NCBI GenBank assembly: GCA_023955335.1
Contig: JAGSGF010000014.1
Span: 1-64,000, forward strand
Source: Yoonia sp.
GTDB lineage: Bacteria; Pseudomonadota; Alphaproteobacteria; Rhodobacterales; Rhodobacteraceae
Reading direction: 5' to 3'
Length of the DNA: 64,000 nucleotides
The position numbers and the translations under genes are program-made. Positions within the stretch are counted from its first letter, which is position 1; the number at the start of each line of letters is the position of its first letter. Positions 921 through 28,043 of this stretch are shown here, piece by piece. Below the pieces are notes generated by a model. The model had not been told where the DNA came from. It saw only the letters and a list, made by a program, of their open reading frames with translations, and did no database searches.

Positions 921-1602
921 CGCGTAACCTCGCCACTGTCATATGCCACTTGCGCCCAAAGCCAGGCACGCGCTTTACGTCAAAGCCTGCGGCATCCAGT
1001 GACTTTCGCACATGTCCCGCCGCTGAATAGGTGGCTGCGGTCCCGAGGGGGCCTGTATGTTTTGCGACCTGAGCAAGCAAGGCCGGTTCCCATAGAGCAG
1101 GGTTCTTATCCGGTGAAAACCCGTCGAGATACCATGCATCTGCCGCCCCGTTCCAGTCACGCAAGGTCTGGCGTGCGTCCCCAATAATGACGTCAAGGGT
1201 TACGCCATCTGCCAATACGACCACACCCGCATCCGGGTGCCACTTGTCCAAAAGAACTTTGGCCAGATGTGACAGCTGCGGGAATGCGATCAGCGCTGCC
1301 TGCATGTCGGATTTTGCCATGGGGTAGGCCTCGAACGACGTAAATCGCAGGTGCCCTTTGGTCCCCGCTTTGATCCACGCATCCCAGGTCACCAAAAAGT
1401 TCAGGCCAGTCCCAAACCCCAGTTCGCCAATGTGAAAATCGCCGCCAAACCGGTCCGGCAGATCGTTCCCTGCAAGGAACACATACTGCGTTTCGGCAAG
1501 CCCGTCTTTCAGCGAATAATACGGGTCGTCGAACTGCTCAGACACAGGCACGCGGCCCGCGTCGGTGTCTTGCCATGTCAGGGATGCCGTCTGGTTGATC
1601 AT
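910..1602 (-). CDS. mnmD: MnmD-like tRNA (5-methylaminomethyl-2-thiouridine) methyltransferase (DUF752); start trimmed to MINQTASLTW
   Basis: Motifs GELGFGTGLNFL, DAWYLDGFSPDKNPALW, AAGHVRKSLDAAGF typical of the MnmC1/MnmD domain. Confidence 0.85.
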   Translation of the reverse strand: MINQTASLTWQDTDAGRVPVSEQFDDPYYSLKDGLAETQYVFLAGNDLPDRFGGDFHIGELGFGTGLNFLVTWDAWIKAGTKGHLRFTSFEAYPMAKSDMQAALIAFPQLSHLAKVLLDKWHPDAGVVVLADGVTLDVIIGDARQTLRDWNGAADAWYLDGFSPDKNPALWEPALLAQVAKHTGPLGTAATYSAAGHVRKSLDAAGFDVKRVPGFGRKWHMTVARLRGAE

Positions 1603-1650
1603 TGCGCGATGCCTTATGCAGGCCCCATCCATAGGGCGGAAGGAACGGAT

Positions 1651-2688
1651 ATGGCAATGGCTCATGTAACAGTGATGGGTGCAGGCGTTTTTGGCCTGTC
1701 GGTCGCCTATGCGTGTTTGCTGCGCGGGGCAAAGGTTCAAGTGATTGATCCGGCGGGCGTTGGTACTGGCGCCAGTGGCGGGATCATTGGCGCGCTTGCC
1801 CCGCATGTGCCTGAACAATGGAACGCGAAAAAGGCGTTTCAATTGGACAGTTTGTTGATGCAAGCTGCGTTCTGGGAGCAGGTTGGCGCGCAATCTGGAA
1901 TGCCTACGGGGTATGCCCGTCATGGCAGGCTTCAACCGCTGGCAGATTCTGCGGCTATCGATCTGGCCCAAACCCGTGCGCAGGGTGCACGTTCGCTTTG
2001 GCAGGGGCAGGCCACTTGGGATGTGATCCCCGCACCAACCGCTGATTGGGCGCCGCCAAGCCCAAGCGGAAAGGTCGTGTTTGATACATTGTCGGCCCTG
2101 ATCCACCCGCGTCAAGCAACGCTGGCGTTAGCGGCTGCCGTGGCATCCCTCGGCGGCCTGATTGACACCAAGGGCGTGCCGCAAGGCAAAGTTGTTTGGG
2201 CAACCGGTTGGGCAGGATTGGACGATATGACCGCACAGCACCACCGGTTGGTTGGCAGTGGCATCAAAGGGCAGGGTGCATTGTTGGATTTTGATGCCCG
2301 CGGGTTGCCACAGCTATACGCTGATACGCTGCATATCATCCCACATAACAACGGAACGGTAGCCGTTGGGGGCACGACCGAACGAGAGTTTGATGATCCC
2401 ACAGGCACAGACGCGCAACTGGAAGATATCATCGCCCGCGCCCACCGTGCCGTGCCGATTTTGGCGAATGCGCCGATCATTAAACGCTGGGCTGGTGTGC
2501 GCCCGCGCAGTCGATCACGCGCCCCGATGCTGGGAGTACACCCGTTTATCAAAGATGCATTTGTGGCGAATGGCGGGTTCAAAATCGGCTTTGGAATGGC
2601 CCCTAAAGCGGGCGAAGTCATGGCCGATCTGATTTTGGATGACCGCGACACCATACCGGATGATTTCATGCCGGACCGCAGCCTGTAG
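1651..2688 (+). CDS. FAD-dependent oxidoreductase (DAO family, MnmC2-like); start trimmed to MAMAHVTVMGAG
   Basis: GAGVFGLSVAYACLLRGAKVQVID Rossmann motif; adjacent and divergent to mnmD. Confidence 0.8.
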   Translation: MAMAHVTVMGAGVFGLSVAYACLLRGAKVQVIDPAGVGTGASGGIIGALAPHVPEQWNAKKAFQLDSLLMQAAFWEQVGAQSGMPTGYARHGRLQPLADSAAIDLAQTRAQGARSLWQGQATWDVIPAPTADWAPPSPSGKVVFDTLSALIHPRQATLALAAAVASLGGLIDTKGVPQGKVVWATGWAGLDDMTAQHHRLVGSGIKGQGALLDFDARGLPQLYADTLHIIPHNNGTVAVGGTTEREFDDPTGTDAQLEDIIARAHRAVPILANAPIIKRWAGVRPRSRSRAPMLGVHPFIKDAFVANGGFKIGFGMAPKAGEVMADLILDDRDTIPDDFMPDRSL

Positions 2689-2689
2689 C

Positions 2690-3484
2690 CTAGGTCGCCT
2701 CTGCCGCCATGCATTGGCGTCCATCAGGGCCACGAACCCATGCGCGCCCGTCTTTCCAGCATAACGTCGCAGTCTCGTGATGCATCAGCGGCGATGTCGC
2801 GCGGTACGAAAAGGCCTCAAGTTGGCCCAGCTGGCGTTGCGCCAGCCCCATCAGAAGATGCGCCAAAAGCGGGCCGTGCACGACCAAGCCGCCGTAACCT
2901 TCGACCTCGCGGGCGTAGGTTTCATCATAATGAATACGGTGCCCGTTGAACGTGAGCGCGGAATAGCGAAACAGCAGTGTGCTATCAAAGGTCACATGCT
3001 CTGCGACGCTCTCGTCGGTGCTGGCCATTGGCGGTGGCGGGGTGCTTGCGGGGGTTGGTTCACGGTACACCAGTTCTTGCCATTCGGTGAGCGCAAGTGT
3101 TTGCCGTTGCCGGATGTCATGACGCATGCGCACAAATGCGAGCGGGCCGCTGCGCCCGTCTTTGCGGGTCACGCCTTCCATGGTAGATGTTTTATCGGCG
3201 CGGATGCCGGCCAGAAGGGGACGGTGGAACACCAGTTTTCCTGCCGCCCACATGCGCCGCGCGCGTCCCATGTCGGGGATGAATTGTCCGGTCGCAGGAT
3301 GCCCGTCTTCACCGAGTACATCTGGCGTTTGCGGATCCCAAAAGTAGATATGATGCGCAAAGGGCGGCAATGCATCGCCCATCGCAATCGAAGGAGCCTT
3401 TCCCAGCGCGGCCTGAAGCGCTTGTGCTCGTGCGACATCCATCGTGTCGCTTTGCGTGTGCATACGGGGAGGCTGGTCAATCAT
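2690..3484 (-). CDS. MaoC/hot-dog-fold dehydratase (mesaconyl-/itaconyl-CoA hydratase-like, HTD2 type)
   Basis: RYSALTFNGHRIHYDETYAREVEGYGGLVVHGPLLA motif; start trimmed to MIDQPPRM. Confidence 0.7.
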   Translation of the reverse strand: MIDQPPRMHTQSDTMDVARAQALQAALGKAPSIAMGDALPPFAHHIYFWDPQTPDVLGEDGHPATGQFIPDMGRARRMWAAGKLVFHRPLLAGIRADKTSTMEGVTRKDGRSGPLAFVRMRHDIRQRQTLALTEWQELVYREPTPASTPPPPMASTDESVAEHVTFDSTLLFRYSALTFNGHRIHYDETYAREVEGYGGLVVHGPLLAHLLMGLAQRQLGQLEAFSYRATSPLMHHETATLCWKDGRAWVRGPDGRQCMAAEAT

Positions 3485-3623
3485 AGCAGGACGGTATCCG
3501 AAAAGACGGGGCGCGCAAATGCGCTGTGTTTTGCATCTTGCAAAAATACTCACTGTGCGGTTGCCAGTCGGCATGGTCTGACACATGCTGTGTCCAGATT
3601 TGGCAGACCAAGGGCAGACAGAC

Positions 3624-5273
3624 ATGCAGCGGCACGGCGGAAAAATCCTAAGCGATCATTTGCAGGCATTGGGTGTGGAACGTGTATTTTCCGTTCCCGG
3701 AGAAAGTTTTCTTGCCGCCCTTGACGGGCTTTACGACAGCGGCATCCCGAACATCGTGTGTCGCCAAGAAGGTGGCGCTGCGATGATGGCGGAGGCCTAT
3801 GGCAAAATGACGGGCAGGCCCGGTGTCTGCTTTGTCACACGCGGACCGGGGGCTACGAACGCGAGCGCGGGCGTGCATATCGCCCAGCAGGACAGCACGC
3901 CAATGGTGCTGTTTGTCGGCCAGATCGACAATCGCTTTACAGACCGTGAAACATTTCAAGAGGTCGATTACCGTGCGATGTTTGGTGGCGTCGCCAAATG
4001 GGTGGCCCAGATCGACCATACTGACCGCATTGCCGAATATGTCACCCGTGCATTTCAGGTAGCTACGTCCGGCCGTCCGGGACCGGTGGTTTTGGCTTTG
4101 CCGGAAAATATGCTGAGCGCTGTGTCTGAGGCGCCTGACCGCCCCGATTTGCCGGATATGAAGGCACCTGACCTCTCAGGTGTCGCGGCCGATATCTTGG
4201 CCGGTATAGCTGCCGCGGAACGCCCGTTGGTGATCGTCGGCGGCCCCCATTGGTCCGACAAAGCTGCTGCTGATTTGGCCGCCTTTGCTGAGGTGCAGGG
4301 GGTGCCCGTAGCGCTCGGGTTTCGCCGTCAGGATTACCTTGATAACCGCCACCGTTGTTATGCAGGTGACCTGAATGTGGGAATCAACCCGCGTCTTGCC
4401 GCGCGAATAAAGGCCGCTGATTTGTTGGTCGTCATCGGGTCCCGATTTGGGGATATCGAATCCCAAGGGTATACGAACCCTGATCCGACTGACGCGGTGC
4501 CAATGATCCACGTGCATGCGGATGCGGATGAAATTGGCACGGTGTATCCGGCACAAATGGGTGTCGTGACCGATGCGCCAGCGATGATCGCGGCCCTTGC
4601 CGCATTGCCGCCCTGCGATGCGGATTGGTCGTCATGGACCGCTGATGCGCGTGCTGACTATGATGCGTGGTTGGTTCCAGCTGTCAGCCCCGGAGAATTG
4701 AAGCAAGAGGACGTCATTGGTTGGCTGTCTGATAACCTGCCCGAGGATGCGATATTAACGAATGGTGCAGGTAATTATGCGGCGTGGCTGCATCGGTATT
4801 TTGTCTACAAACAATATGGCACCCAATTGGCCCCCACATCTGGGTCGATGGGCTATGGGTTTCCTGCTGCGATTTCCGCATCCTTGCATCACCCTGAAAA
4901 GGTTGTGGTCTGCTTAGCTGGTGACGGGTGTTTTCAGATGACCTGCAACGAGCTTTCGACCGCCGCCCAGCATGGTGCTGCGCCGATTGTTGTGGTCATG
5001 GACAATGGTCGCTACGGCACGATCCGGATGCATCAGGAAAAGACCTATCCGGGGCGCGTGTCCGGGACGGCTTTGGTGAACCCTGACTTTGCGGCTTTGG
5101 CCCGTGCATATGGAGGGCACGGCGAACACGTCACGCGGTCGCAAGACTTTGCTGACGCATTTGCGCGTGCCCGTGCGTCAGGCACATTTGCGGTCATTGC
5201 TTGCAAGGTGGATGACGAGGCGTTGTCGACGGGGGCCACATTGTCGGCTGTGCGCAAGGCGGCTGGCGGGTAA
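3624..5273 (+). CDS. Thiamine pyrophosphate-dependent enzyme, acetolactate synthase-like
   Basis: RQEGGAAMMAEAYGKMTGRPG N-terminus and ThDP motif GDGCFQMTCNELSTAAQHG..VVMDNGRYG. Confidence 0.85.
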   Translation: MQRHGGKILSDHLQALGVERVFSVPGESFLAALDGLYDSGIPNIVCRQEGGAAMMAEAYGKMTGRPGVCFVTRGPGATNASAGVHIAQQDSTPMVLFVGQIDNRFTDRETFQEVDYRAMFGGVAKWVAQIDHTDRIAEYVTRAFQVATSGRPGPVVLALPENMLSAVSEAPDRPDLPDMKAPDLSGVAADILAGIAAAERPLVIVGGPHWSDKAAADLAAFAEVQGVPVALGFRRQDYLDNRHRCYAGDLNVGINPRLAARIKAADLLVVIGSRFGDIESQGYTNPDPTDAVPMIHVHADADEIGTVYPAQMGVVTDAPAMIAALAALPPCDADWSSWTADARADYDAWLVPAVSPGELKQEDVIGWLSDNLPEDAILTNGAGNYAAWLHRYFVYKQYGTQLAPTSGSMGYGFPAAISASLHHPEKVVVCLAGDGCFQMTCNELSTAAQHGAAPIVVVMDNGRYGTIRMHQEKTYPGRVSGTALVNPDFAALARAYGGHGEHVTRSQDFADAFARARASGTFAVIACKVDDEALSTGATLSAVRKAAGG

Positions 5274-9801: not shown

Positions 9802-9870
9802 ATGAAGCTTTTTTCAATTAGTCTTTTGATCGGATACTTAGGTATTTCGGCTGCAGTTGTTGGTGTTTAG
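9802..9870 (+). CDS. Putative 22-aa hydrophobic micro-ORF (MKLFSISLLIGYLGISAAVVGV)
   Basis: ATG with upstream purine-rich GAGGG; hydrophobic sequence; stop overlaps the cobN stop. Confidence 0.25.
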   Translation: MKLFSISLLIGYLGISAAVVGV

Positions 9871-12800
9871 TCCAACAACCCTGCGATCCTTGCGCGTGCC
9901 GAATTTGATTTGGGCTGCCACAGGTCGCGATCGATTGCTTCTTGCAGCCGTGCGGCTATTTCCGCAAGGGCGGGTGCGTTGACGTCAGCAATGAATTCAC
10001 GGGTGTCGTCATCTGCTAAGAACGCTTCTTCAACCAAATCAAAGTGGTGGTTTTTGACGGCACCTGTCGTTGCTGCAAAGGCAAATAGATAGTCCACAGT
10101 TGCCGCAATTTCGAACGCTCCTTTGTAGCCGTGCCGTTTGACACCGTCGATCCATTTTGGGTTGACCACACGTGACCGCACAACCCGCCCAATTTCATCC
10201 TCAAGCGTCCGTATAACGGGTCTTTCTGGTCGCGAGTGGTCGTTATGATAGATCGGTCGGTCGCGTCCTTGCAAGGTGCTGATTGCCGCTGCTGCCCCAC
10301 CTTCGAATTGATAGTAGTCATCGCTGTCCAAGATATCGTGCTCGCGGTTGTCTTGGTTTTGCACGATGGCTTCAGTTTGGGTTAGCCGTTGTTCAAAAGC
10401 ATCGCGCGCAGCCCGTCCTTCGGCCTTTGCGTCATACGCATAGGACCCCCAAGTCAGGTATGCATTGGCAAGGTCGGCTTTGTCCGCCCATAGCTTTTCG
10501 TCGATCATTGCCTGCAAGCCAGCCCCGTATGCACCGGGCTTGGACCCAAAGACCCGAGCGGTGTCTTCGCCCGCTTTGGTGCGGGCTGCTGCGGGGTTGA
10601 GGTCCGCGGGTTCGTCAAGGACTTGAACCGCCCGTGCGGCGCTGTCGACCAATGCGATAAGTTGCGGAAACGCGTCGCGGAAGAAACCTGAGATGCGCAG
10701 AGTGACGTCAACGCGCGGGCGCCCAAGCACGCCTTTCGGCAGGACTTCAAACCCAGTGACCCGCCGATTTGCGCTATCCCATGTAGGCTTCACACCCATA
10801 AGTGCGAGCGCTTGAGCAATATCGTCCCCACCTGTGCGCATGTTCGCAGTACCCCATGCGGTGATCAGCATCGTGCGTGGCCAATCGCCATGGTCTTGTA
10901 GGTGCTTTTCGATCAGCAAGTTCGCGGATTTCCAGCCGAGTTTCCATGCGGTTGGCGTTGGTACTGCGCGGCTGTCAACGGAATAGAAATTGCGTCCGGT
11001 TGGCAGAACATCAAGCCGCCCGCGGGTGGGAGCGCCGGACGGCGCCGGGGCGACGAAGTGCCCTGCAAGGGCGGTGAGTAGGCCCGCCCCTTCGTCTGGG
11101 CCGCATTGCGCAACTGTTGGGATGATCCGGTCGAATATTTCGTTAAGAACGGGTTGTGACGCTCGTGTGCTGAAGCCCACATCGCCCCACCCCCCATCCC
11201 GCAACAGGTTCTGGCTGATCAGTTCCAACCGCTCAACGGTGTCCCCTTGGGTTCGCCAGATGTCGTCCGTGACAGCTTTCAGCACATCCGGCTTTTCGGT
11301 TGTCGTTTGTCCTAAATCACAATCAAGCGGGTCAAAAGAGATGTCGAGATCACTTGCAATTGCCCGCAGTAGCGATGCGTTTTGTTCTTTTCCATCCCCC
11401 CGTGGTACCCGCGCCAATGCAATCGTCAGATCACGAGCAAGATCTCCTGTTGGGGATTGCCCAAAGATATGCAGACCATCACGAATTTGGGATTCTTTGA
11501 GCTCGCACAAATAGGCGTCGAGTTTTGCAAGGTCGCCATCTGCATCCCCGTCAAATCCTGCATCTTTGCCAAAGCCCGTGACGTCGGACAGCGATAGGAT
11601 TTCTTGGCGCAAGAGTTTGATCCTGCGTGGATCAACGCCCGCTGCTTCGTAGTATTCGTCCACAAGGGCTTCGAGATCCCGCATCGGCCCATAGCTTTCG
11701 GCGCGTGTCAGCGGCGGCGTCAGGTGGTCGATGATAACTGCGGATGTGCGCCGCTTGGCTTGTGTCCCTTCGCCCGGATCGTTCACGATGAACGGATAGA
11801 TGTGCGGGGTCGCCCCGAAAACAGCCTCGGGCCAGCATGTTTCGGACAATGCCAGCGCCTTGCCGGGGAGCCATTCGAGGTTCCCGTGTTTGCCCATATG
11901 CACAATGGCGTCCGCACCCCAGTGGTGTCGCAAGTAAAAGTAAAATGCCAGATAGTTGTGCGGCGGGACGAGGTCGGGCGAGTGGTAGGTCTCAGTCGGG
12001 TCGATGTTGTATCCACGTGCCGGTTGTAGCCCGACGACGGCGTTTCCAAATTCATGGATCGAGAGTTTGAAGCCTTGCGCCGTCTCCGGCGGGAGTATTT
12101 CGGAAAAAGCGAGGAAAGGATCGTCTTCAGGTCGACCCCATCGCGTGGTAATTTGCTTCTTTGGTTCCCAAGGAAGTGCATCGAAATGTTTTTTGTAGAT
12201 ACTGAGAGGGAGCGTAACGCCGCCTTTCGTGTCCGCTCGGTCAGTCAACCAGTTAGTCGGGCCAGCCATCATTAGTTCCATGAGCGCTTGGGCGTCTGCG
12301 GGCGCTGTCGTCGTGTAACCGTTCTGTGCAAGCAGGTTGAGCGTGTGAATTGTCGCTGCAGGTGTGTCGAGGCCGACGCCGTTGGCAAGCCTTCCGTTTT
12401 TGTTGGGGTAGTTGGCGAGGATGAGTGCGACTTTGCGGTCTTTAGTGGGCGTACTTCGTAAGCGCGCCCATTTTGCGGTCAGGTCAGCCACAAAATCGAT
12501 CCGGTTGCCGTGCCCTTGGTAGGTCGCGATGGCGCATTCGGTCGCGTCGTCAAAGAAAGCTTCACCCTTGAACGACACTGCGCGCGACAGGATGCGCCCG
12601 TCGACTTCGGGTAGGGCCACGTTCATCGCGATGTCACGGGCAGAGAGCCCTTGGACGCTTTCGGCCCATGCGGAGTCTGATGCGCTGGATAGGATGACTT
12701 GGAAAATGGGGGATTTGTTTGCGGCTTCCATCGTTAGTGGGTTTTGTGGGCTGTCGTCGCCGTCATGTGGGGAGCCAACCGCAAAGGCCGTGCAGTTGAG

Positions 12801-13583
12801 GATCACGCTTGGCGGCGCGGATTGGAACAGGTGTTGCAGGGTTGCTGTGCTGAGCGGGTCTTTGAGAGAGGCCACGAAGACCGGCAGCGGGTTGAGGCCA
12901 CGGCGCGATAGGCTGCGCACCATGCGGTTAATCGGGTTCAACCCGCCGCCTTGCACGAGGGCGCGGTAGAAGATTATGGGGACGACTGGTGCGTTCGGCG
13001 TCCATCCCGTTTTGGCGGTGTCGAGGTCAGTAATCCCTGATCCGGGCCAGTAGACACCTGCCCGTAATAAAGGTGTAGCTGCTGTTGGTTTATTTGTATT
13101 CTTAAGTATTGCGCCGCAATAGGATAAGAAATTGGTGCTATTTTGCGGACCACCTTCAACGAGGTAGGACCAAAGCGCGTCGTAATCTTCGTCTGATACG
13201 GTGGACAAGCCGCGTAGCTCTGCGTCGGGTTTGTCGTCACCGGGCAGGGCTGCAAATGGAATGCCCGCAGCGTGCAGCGATGCCGCGTATTGCGTCAGGC
13301 CGTATTTCCAATAGCCCATGCCGCCCAATACGCGAGCTACGACCAGTTTGGATTTGGACGCGCAGTTGTCGATGTGCAGGTCCACAGACATCGGGTGCGT
13401 CAGGTGCATCATGTTGGCCAGCCGCAAGGTTGGCGGGGCCGCCATTTCATTGCGTGCTTCGGACAATGCAGCCAATTCCGTGTCAGCCGCCGAGATGAAA
13501 ACCACATCTGCAGGCGTTTGCCCAAGGTCGAACGGTTCGTCCCCGTCAGAGATTGCGCCGGGGGTAGCAGCTAGCAGGTGCAT
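9867..13583 (-). CDS. cobN: Cobaltochelatase subunit CobN
   Basis: LVPPHNYLAFYFYLRHHWGADAIVHMGKHGNLEWLPGK; about 1238 aa. Confidence 0.95.
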   Translation of the reverse strand: MHLLAATPGAISDGDEPFDLGQTPADVVFISAADTELAALSEARNEMAAPPTLRLANMMHLTHPMSVDLHIDNCASKSKLVVARVLGGMGYWKYGLTQYAASLHAAGIPFAALPGDDKPDAELRGLSTVSDEDYDALWSYLVEGGPQNSTNFLSYCGAILKNTNKPTAATPLLRAGVYWPGSGITDLDTAKTGWTPNAPVVPIIFYRALVQGGGLNPINRMVRSLSRRGLNPLPVFVASLKDPLSTATLQHLFQSAPPSVILNCTAFAVGSPHDGDDSPQNPLTMEAANKSPIFQVILSSASDSAWAESVQGLSARDIAMNVALPEVDGRILSRAVSFKGEAFFDDATECAIATYQGHGNRIDFVADLTAKWARLRSTPTKDRKVALILANYPNKNGRLANGVGLDTPAATIHTLNLLAQNGYTTTAPADAQALMELMMAGPTNWLTDRADTKGGVTLPLSIYKKHFDALPWEPKKQITTRWGRPEDDPFLAFSEILPPETAQGFKLSIHEFGNAVVGLQPARGYNIDPTETYHSPDLVPPHNYLAFYFYLRHHWGADAIVHMGKHGNLEWLPGKALALSETCWPEAVFGATPHIYPFIVNDPGEGTQAKRRTSAVIIDHLTPPLTRAESYGPMRDLEALVDEYYEAAGVDPRRIKLLRQEILSLSDVTGFGKDAGFDGDADGDLAKLDAYLCELKESQIRDGLHIFGQSPTGDLARDLTIALARVPRGDGKEQNASLLRAIASDLDISFDPLDCDLGQTTTEKPDVLKAVTDDIWRTQGDTVERLELISQNLLRDGGWGDVGFSTRASQPVLNEIFDRIIPTVAQCGPDEGAGLLTALAGHFVAPAPSGAPTRGRLDVLPTGRNFYSVDSRAVPTPTAWKLGWKSANLLIEKHLQDHGDWPRTMLITAWGTANMRTGGDDIAQALALMGVKPTWDSANRRVTGFEVLPKGVLGRPRVDVTLRISGFFRDAFPQLIALVDSAARAVQVLDEPADLNPAAARTKAGEDTARVFGSKPGAYGAGLQAMIDEKLWADKADLANAYLTWGSYAYDAKAEGRAARDAFEQRLTQTEAIVQNQDNREHDILDSDDYYQFEGGAAAAISTLQGRDRPIYHNDHSRPERPVIRTLEDEIGRVVRSRVVNPKWIDGVKRHGYKGAFEIAATVDYLFAFAATTGAVKNHHFDLVEEAFLADDDTREFIADVNAPALAEIAARLQEAIDRDLWQPKSNSARARIAGLLD
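12082..12114 (-). repeat. Copy of the same ~33-bp repeat embedded in frame in cobN
   Basis: Minus strand cctcgctttttccgaaatactcccgccggagac, encoding ..LAFSEILPPET.. Confidence 0.6.
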
Positions 13584-26799: not shown

Positions 26800-28004
26800 A
26801 AACGGGTGTTATGATTTGCGGGCACGGCTCGCGGTCCCAATCTGCTGTCGATGAATTCGCGACACTGGCGCAAAAGCTGCCTGCGTATTTGCCGGACGAC
26901 TGGCTGTGCGACTATGGCTATCTGGAATTTGCGAACCCTGTGATCCGTGATGGCCTTGATAACCTGCGTGACGCGGGCTGCGACCGTATCCTAGCGGTTC
27001 CCGGTATGTTGTTTGCGGCCATGCATGCCAAAAATGATATTCCAACGGTTCTGAACACATACGCCACCCAGCACGGTGTGACCGTCAGTTATGGCCGCGA
27101 ATTGGGCGTTGATCCCAAGATGATCGCAGCCGCCGCAAGCCGTATCCAAGACGCGGTCGCTGCTGCCAATTTCAAACACGGCGACGTATCACTGCATGAC
27201 ACCTGCCTTGTTGTCATTGGCCGCGGTGCGTCTGATCCTGATGCCAATGGCAACGTCGCGAAAATCGCGCGTATGCTGCACGAAGGTATCGGCTTTGGCT
27301 GGCATGAGGTTGGCTATTCTGGCGTGACGTTCCCGCTGGTTGAGCCTTGCCTGACCCACGCAGCCAAGCTGGGCTACAAACGGATCATCGTATTTCCGTA
27401 TTTCCTATTTTCGGGTATCCTGATCGACCGCATTTACGGGTTTACCGATCAAGTTGCAGCGGAAAATACCGACATCCAATTTATCAAAGCAGGTTACTTG
27501 GGCGACCACCCCAAGGTGCTGGAAACCTTTGCAGAACGGATCATCGAACAAACGGGTAAGAACCCGCCACCAAACTGCGGCACCTGCGCCTACCGGACCC
27601 AAGTTCTGGCGATGGAAGGCGGCAAAGAGGTCACTATTCCGGCGGACATGCGCGAAAAACACCCAGCGTTTTCCGACACACCGCCGCCGACTTGCGTGCT
27701 GTGCAAATACCGGACCCAAGTCTTGGGCTTTGAGGGTGAAGTCGGTGCCGTGCAAGAATCGCACCACCACCATGTGGAAGGTCAGGGTGCATCTGCCCCC
27801 GGCTCTAACGTAGCGGACTGCGCGTTCTGCGACACGTTTTGCACAGGCGTCTGCCGGCTTGAGGCCGCGAAGGATCACCATCATCATCACGATCACGGGG
27901 AGGGCCACCATCATCACCACGACCATGATCACGCGCATCCTGTGTATCCACACGCCCAACACCCGCACGGCCCCGAAAGCGCACGCAAAACCAAGCGGTC
28001 CTGA
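26796..28004 (+). CDS. Sirohydrochlorin chelatase-like CbiX protein with Cys- and His-rich C-terminus
   Basis: MICGHGSRSQSAVDEF; CGTCAYRTQVL, CVLCKYRTQVL, CAFCDTFCTGVC; DHHHHHDHGEGHHHHHDHDHAH. Confidence 0.88.
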   Translation: MKTGVMICGHGSRSQSAVDEFATLAQKLPAYLPDDWLCDYGYLEFANPVIRDGLDNLRDAGCDRILAVPGMLFAAMHAKNDIPTVLNTYATQHGVTVSYGRELGVDPKMIAAAASRIQDAVAAANFKHGDVSLHDTCLVVIGRGASDPDANGNVAKIARMLHEGIGFGWHEVGYSGVTFPLVEPCLTHAAKLGYKRIIVFPYFLFSGILIDRIYGFTDQVAAENTDIQFIKAGYLGDHPKVLETFAERIIEQTGKNPPPNCGTCAYRTQVLAMEGGKEVTIPADMREKHPAFSDTPPPTCVLCKYRTQVLGFEGEVGAVQESHHHHVEGQGASAPGSNVADCAFCDTFCTGVCRLEAAKDHHHHHDHGEGHHHHHDHDHAHPVYPHAQHPHGPESARKTKRS

Positions 28005-28006
28005 CT

Positions 28007-28043
28007 CCTCGCTTTTTTCAAAATACTCCCGCCGGAGGCTCCG
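28007..28043 (+). repeat. Intergenic copy of a dispersed ~33-bp repeat
   Basis: cctcgcttttttcaaaatactcccgccggaggc; about 30/33 identical to the reverse complement of 12082-12114. Confidence 0.65.

Follow-up and report, generated by a model that had tools for sequence, protein, structure and literature searches.

A short dispersed element of the Rhodobacteraceae that is inserted in frame in CobN and changes in concert

Rickettsia palindromic elements are short repeats dispersed between genes and also found in frame in many proteins (PMC3733652); as a class, they are long palindromes. REP and REPIN repeats, which are associated with RAYT and fall into GTAG and CGTC superfamilies, form REP populations within genomes (PMC3733652, PMC3116915, PMC8049555), and the DNA uptake sequence of the Neisseriaceae is a dispersed site that occurs in dialects (PMC3630211). 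Here we set beside these systems a 33-bp element that lies in frame in the cobN gene of a Yoonia sp. genome (3.03 Mb, 83 contigs), of which a stretch of 64,000 nucleotides, hereafter called the window, was analysed; positions are those of the window unless another contig is named.

The insertion in CobN

The window encodes a complete cobaltochelatase subunit CobN of 1238 aa on the minus strand at 9867..13583 (TIGR02257, 1588 bits). Within this gene the dispersed element, CCTCGCTTTTTCCGAAATACTCCCGCCGGAGAC, occupies 12082..12114 on the minus strand and comprises, on the same strand, the arm CCTCGCTTTTT (12104..12114), which is the lineage-specific or 'dialect' half, a variable 2-nt spacer (12101..12102), both assigned from genome profiles, and the conserved core AAATACTCCCGCCGGAG (12084..12100). 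The translation across the site reads ...PEDDPFLAFSEILPPETAQGFKLSIHEFGN..., in which the copy plus its joining codons contributes the peptide LAFSEILPPETAQ. A second copy of the element lies between genes on the plus strand at 28007..28039, directly 3' of the stop codon of a gene that we take to be CbiX-like and upstream of a gene that we take to be cobH-like, both names being read from the translations. A first-pass annotation made from sequence alone had put the match between these two copies at about 30 of 33 positions and had translated CobN around the insert; both statements held, with 3 of the 33 positions differing between the copies. Shuffles of the window gave 0 matches to the 33-mer. 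A scan for sigma-70 promoters and terminators around the intergenic copy revealed no excess over shuffles. Just upstream of this copy, at 27877-27965, the CbiX-like protein ends in a very His-rich C-terminal tail.

The insert in CobN amounts to about 9-14 residues in frame between DPF and GF, and about 27 of 30 CobN genes from the genus (Yoonia/Loktanella group) have an element-bearing segment bounded by DPF and GF[KA]LS, those of G025, G032 and G012 being without it. Recognisable copies at the same site were present in CobN of Marimonas, Pseudooceanicola, Pseudooctadecabacter, Litoreibacter and Loktanella, a Jannaschia contig contained a matching element, and CobN of Celeribacter, Limimaricola and Maritimibacter possibly holds decayed copies. 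In most other genera, DPF and FGN are 12 or 17 residues apart, as compared to 20-26 residues where the element is present, and the best solved CobN chain, 9uk9, shows a gap at the insert in the alignment, with about five residues in place of the element-derived segment. In a CobN tree calculated with the insert left out, G012, which has no insert, is sister to G018, which has one, and the inserts of the sisters G002 and G003 differ. The distribution over the genus, over other genera and relative to 9uk9 thus shows a genuine in-frame insertion in CobN, which is old and has recurred at a single site.

These results also support what had been inferred before relatives were compared. The distances in other genera agree with the view that CobN normally has no such insert after DPF, and the objection that the segment might be conserved in distant CobN proteins failed, since it is missing there. 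The repeat as a short in-frame peptide insertion held, while the term 'domesticated' would imply a protein function for the peptide and is hypothetical. The earlier reading needs correction in that the insertion is old, being common to most of the genus and to several other genera.

It could be argued that the segment is an ordinary variable loop of CobN with a chance likeness to the repeat, and the length of this loop does indeed vary in all CobN. This explanation is refuted and can be all but excluded: the cobN copy is identical at 31/31 nt, from the arm to GGAG, to the copy downstream of purL in the same genome, chance matches numbered 0, permutation gave 0/20000, and the same pattern was found in four other proteins.

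Dispersal of the element and its surroundings

The 17-nt core AAATACTCCCGCCGGAG occurs nine times exactly in the window's genome, and 12 copies were detected at <=1 mismatch in a 16-nt core, while the reversed pattern used as a control gave 0. In each unit an 11-nt arm and AAATACTCCCGCCGGAGGC flank a variable spacer of 2 nt, and comparison of the flanks in this genome showed that the copies have about 33 nt in common, CCTCGCTTTTTNNNAAATACTCCCGCCGGAGGC, mostly beginning a few bases past a stop codon. Genes that we take from their translations to be iolB, trpA, purL, betC and a CbiX-like gene are among the neighbours of the copies. The repeat is genome-wide, so the objection that the 33-mer might be restricted to the two sites in the window failed. 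In a GTDB sample of the family Rhodobacteraceae, matches were obtained in 115 of 150 genera, with up to 88 core-pattern copies per genome and further arms.

Some additional observations concern the distribution and arrangement of the element. Eighteen matches fell in viral contigs and three in plasmids. Inverted pairs of elements, tens of bases to about 155 apart, were seen at several places (G127, L009, G005:C11:169195/169350 and the IMG/VR contigs L383, L385 and L391), and a separate arm, (CG)TTTGATACATAAGGCC, stands upstream of the same core in several genera (G108 in two places, G003:C1:1036632 and L088). At twelve loci (L173 to L411), AT-rich near-perfect palindromes such as ATCAAATTTCTAGAAATTTGAT lie directly 3' of the GGAGGC end; these may be terminators or belong to another family of repeats.

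Context was counted for 156 distinct copies retrieved from genomes of the genus. Called ORFs contain nine of them, though for L257 and L297 this is probably due to a wrongly assigned start codon, and the short ORF around L199 is doubtful. Besides CobN, the same element is in frame in BchB, NrdJ, PutA and GluQ-RS, as identified by NCBIfam. BchB carries it in 11 of 25 genomes in an antisense-strand reading, ASGGS..., with plain linkers in the remainder. In NrdJ it was found in five genomes (5/30 loci) and is read as NTPAGG, the copies of G064 and G016 having exactly the G064 dialect. GluQ-RS contains the element in the latter two genomes and not in G029, and PutA contains it in G007. Between them, the in-frame copies use all three sense and two antisense frames. 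Since the core is without a stop codon in all six frames, the element can survive in coding sequence provided that the frame is kept and the linker is tolerant. Dispersal, insertion as a unit and in-frame use in five proteins are thus shown.

Two further loci may be mentioned here. The PutA linkers of G016 and G029 (L503 and L505) read TS.EPKYPRRR, resembling SFCPQYSRRR of the filled G007 allele, and possibly represent a decayed copy. On contig C28 of the window's own genome (L004), a small ORF resembling a membrane protein (1468-1785, minus strand) ends in a C-terminal tail, LAFSQILPPEAPHAYTRVTL, that is encoded by an in-frame copy, in the reading frame also used by the CobN copy.

For intergenic copies of the genus set, the gene context was '--' for 65, '++' for 47, '+-' for 25 and '-+' for 6. 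An RNA element of 3' ends or intercistronic regions, acting as a processing site, attenuator or terminator, could be considered, as copies in sense orientation mostly begin 0-17 nt past the stop codon, nearly all copies in the window's genome are co-directional with the upstream gene, and some copies are followed by AT-rich palindromes. However, the two orientations relative to genes are balanced when the genus set is pooled, and conserved copies lie in coding sequence in both orientations. Moreover, folding of the dialects disclosed no shared structure, with a 4-bp stem in most of them and z-scores from +1.0 to -2.3, and the covariance models of Rfam 15 gave no match up to E = 1 at the seven loci searched. 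We therefore regard an RNA element as unlikely.

Mobilisation by a RAYT transposase, as in REP-type elements, is less probable still. The size, the extragenic bias, the inverted pairs and the avoidance of divergent promoters (6 '-+' among the 147 copies outside ORFs) do resemble REP elements. On the other hand, the consensus from 17 genomes is without a GTAG or CGTC tag, no stem exceeds 4-5 bp, and the Y1 transposase was not matched in most genomes, near-closed ones included. Specifically, searches for Y1/RAYT (PF01797), in which the controls were positive, gave 0 matches in the window's genome and none in 32 of 41 genus genomes; matches were obtained in the other nine, six of them over the cut-off. 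Because Y1/RAYT matches occur in so few genomes, RAYT is not the mover on present evidence, and this explanation is already largely refuted.

Concerted change of the arms

Most copies of a genome share one or two arms. The arm of the window's genome is CTCGCTTTTT, and arms elsewhere include ATCATTTTGCC, TTCTTTCTTCC, TTCTTATTTCC, TTCTCATGTTC with ATACCTCC, and CTTCATCTTGGCC with AAACTCC. The copies form about 45 groups of orthologous sites, showing that positions are kept between species, although the groups were obtained with a tblastx heuristic that may chain some wrong members. At orthologous sites of non-sister pairs, the arm was identical at 9.28/11 positions to copies of its own genome versus 6.90/11 to its ortholog, and random copies from different genomes agreed at 6.27/11. 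Orthologs of the intergenic copy at 28007 are present in G007 and G030, each with the arm of its own genome (group L003/L162/L297), and at a site shared by G005 and G008 the arms are alike at 8/12 positions, with flanks 95-97% identical. CobN inserts likewise match their own genome at 24.5/29 positions, compared to 21.8 +/- 0.42 upon permutation (0/20000 permutations), although in about nine of 23 the insert departs from the main dialect of the genome. The copies evolve in concert, and both the conserved positions and the concerted change of the arm are shown.

Between sister species, divergence was 3.1% in the arm, 12% in the spacer and 8-12% in the flanks; the corresponding 0.2% in the core is biased, as copies were found by their core, and core conservation is partly by construction. 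Spacer identity was 0.51 within and 0.38 between genomes, as compared to 0.78 within and 0.39 between genomes for the dialect columns, which also shows that the spacer is under less constraint than arm and core. Where two copies of a genome had matching arms, their core variants were identical in 99% of pairs, against 61% where the arms differed. Since the spacer is weakly homogenised and the core tracks the arm, it appears that arm and core are recognised together as a pair, with more freedom in the spacer between them.

The explanation that we put forward, for which we consider the balance of evidence roughly level, is that a short dispersed element of the Rhodobacteraceae, non-autonomous and rewritten via a trans-acting reader, entered cobN in frame long ago and gave rise to the segment. 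Such an element would be bipartite, its arm of about 11 nt and its core of about 19 nt being separated by a 2-nt spacer, and would settle mostly just past stop codons in either orientation and occasionally in coding sequence. An unknown trans-acting factor would read the bases of arm and core at the DNA level, and upon a change of dialect in a lineage, copies at old positions, the cobN copy included, would be rewritten to the new dialect. Past or present mobility is argued from the whole-unit insertions in proteins, and recognition of arm and core from the conserved positions with rewritten arms, whereas the trans-acting reader, its action on DNA and the rewriting of copies through a step akin to conversion or homing are inferred, and the mechanism is unresolved. 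Several points speak against this explanation: no mobility gene is known, Y1/RAYT being absent from the window's genome and unmatched in most genomes of the genus; the spacer is little homogenised, which is unexpected under simple block copying; and a substantial part of the CobN inserts are off the main dialect of their genome, as given above.

Alternatively, the copies may be functional host DNA sites, like uptake or chromosome-organising sites, whose arm and core are read by a fast-evolving DNA-binding protein, each site adapting by selection without present movement. This remains possible, as positions and orientation are conserved between species, the arm of sister species is less diverged than spacer and flanks, both orientations are used about equally and the spacer is free. 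Nevertheless, whole-unit insertions in proteins require a means of insertion, there are merely 10-90 copies, and several dialects coexist in one genome with the arm linked to the core. We place conversion or homing slightly ahead of site-by-site selection after a change of reader, but this is an open question. The boldest reading would be an undescribed bipartite DNA recognition system of the Rhodobacteraceae. Its site would differ in dialect between closely related species, and a change of dialect would be written concertedly into tens of fixed chromosomal positions, so strongly that even the copies inside CobN, BchB and NrdJ follow at the cost of altered peptides; we consider this reading less likely than not.

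Comparison with described systems

Most known cases of repeats that encode protein in frame come from Rickettsia and its relatives; the shorter element described here acts likewise across the Rhodobacteraceae, a large family of bacteria that are free-living. Concerted change at orthologous sites, with enzyme linkers dragged along, provides a way to test the rewriting of short dispersed sites by a genome together with their reader. It also calls for caution, as a linker of CobN, BchB or NrdJ that is peculiar to one species may stem from a repeat and not from adaptation. Our search of the open-access literature did not retrieve the core sequence or anything relevant on such repeats in Rhodobacterales or Roseobacter, which does not prove that no such report exists.

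An analogy to Rickettsia palindromic elements had been drawn in the first-pass annotation. As mode of action the comparison is apt, because the element is inserted in frame in unrelated proteins, namely BchB, NrdJ, PutA and GluQ-RS in addition to CobN, but the 'palindromic' part is not supported, given the 4-bp stem. Unlike Rickettsia palindromic elements, the element is 33 bp long, forms no long palindrome or stable hairpin, shows concerted lineage dialects and resides in free-living Rhodobacteraceae. With REP and REPIN repeats it shares a size of 20-40 bp, extragenic location, some inverted pairs, species-specific variants and persistence within genomes, and CGTC REPs are likewise without a dedicated transposase; it differs from REP/RAYT systems by having neither a GTAG/CGTC tag nor a paired stem above 4-5 bp, and by a Y1 transposase that is unmatched in most of the genus. 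Uptake sequences resemble it in their species-specific dialects, constant core, intergenic and intragenic location, inverted pairs and, sometimes, two dialects per genome. In contrast to these, our element is present in 10-90 copies and not roughly 1500-3700, measures 33 nt and not 10-12, and is inserted as a unit, and no uptake function was tested. Since the element lacks one tested defining feature of each system (a long palindrome, a tag together with RAYT, and copy number, respectively), it can be placed in none of them. In conclusion, we consider it a new variant of in-frame dispersed repeats and an apparently undescribed family of short DNA elements.
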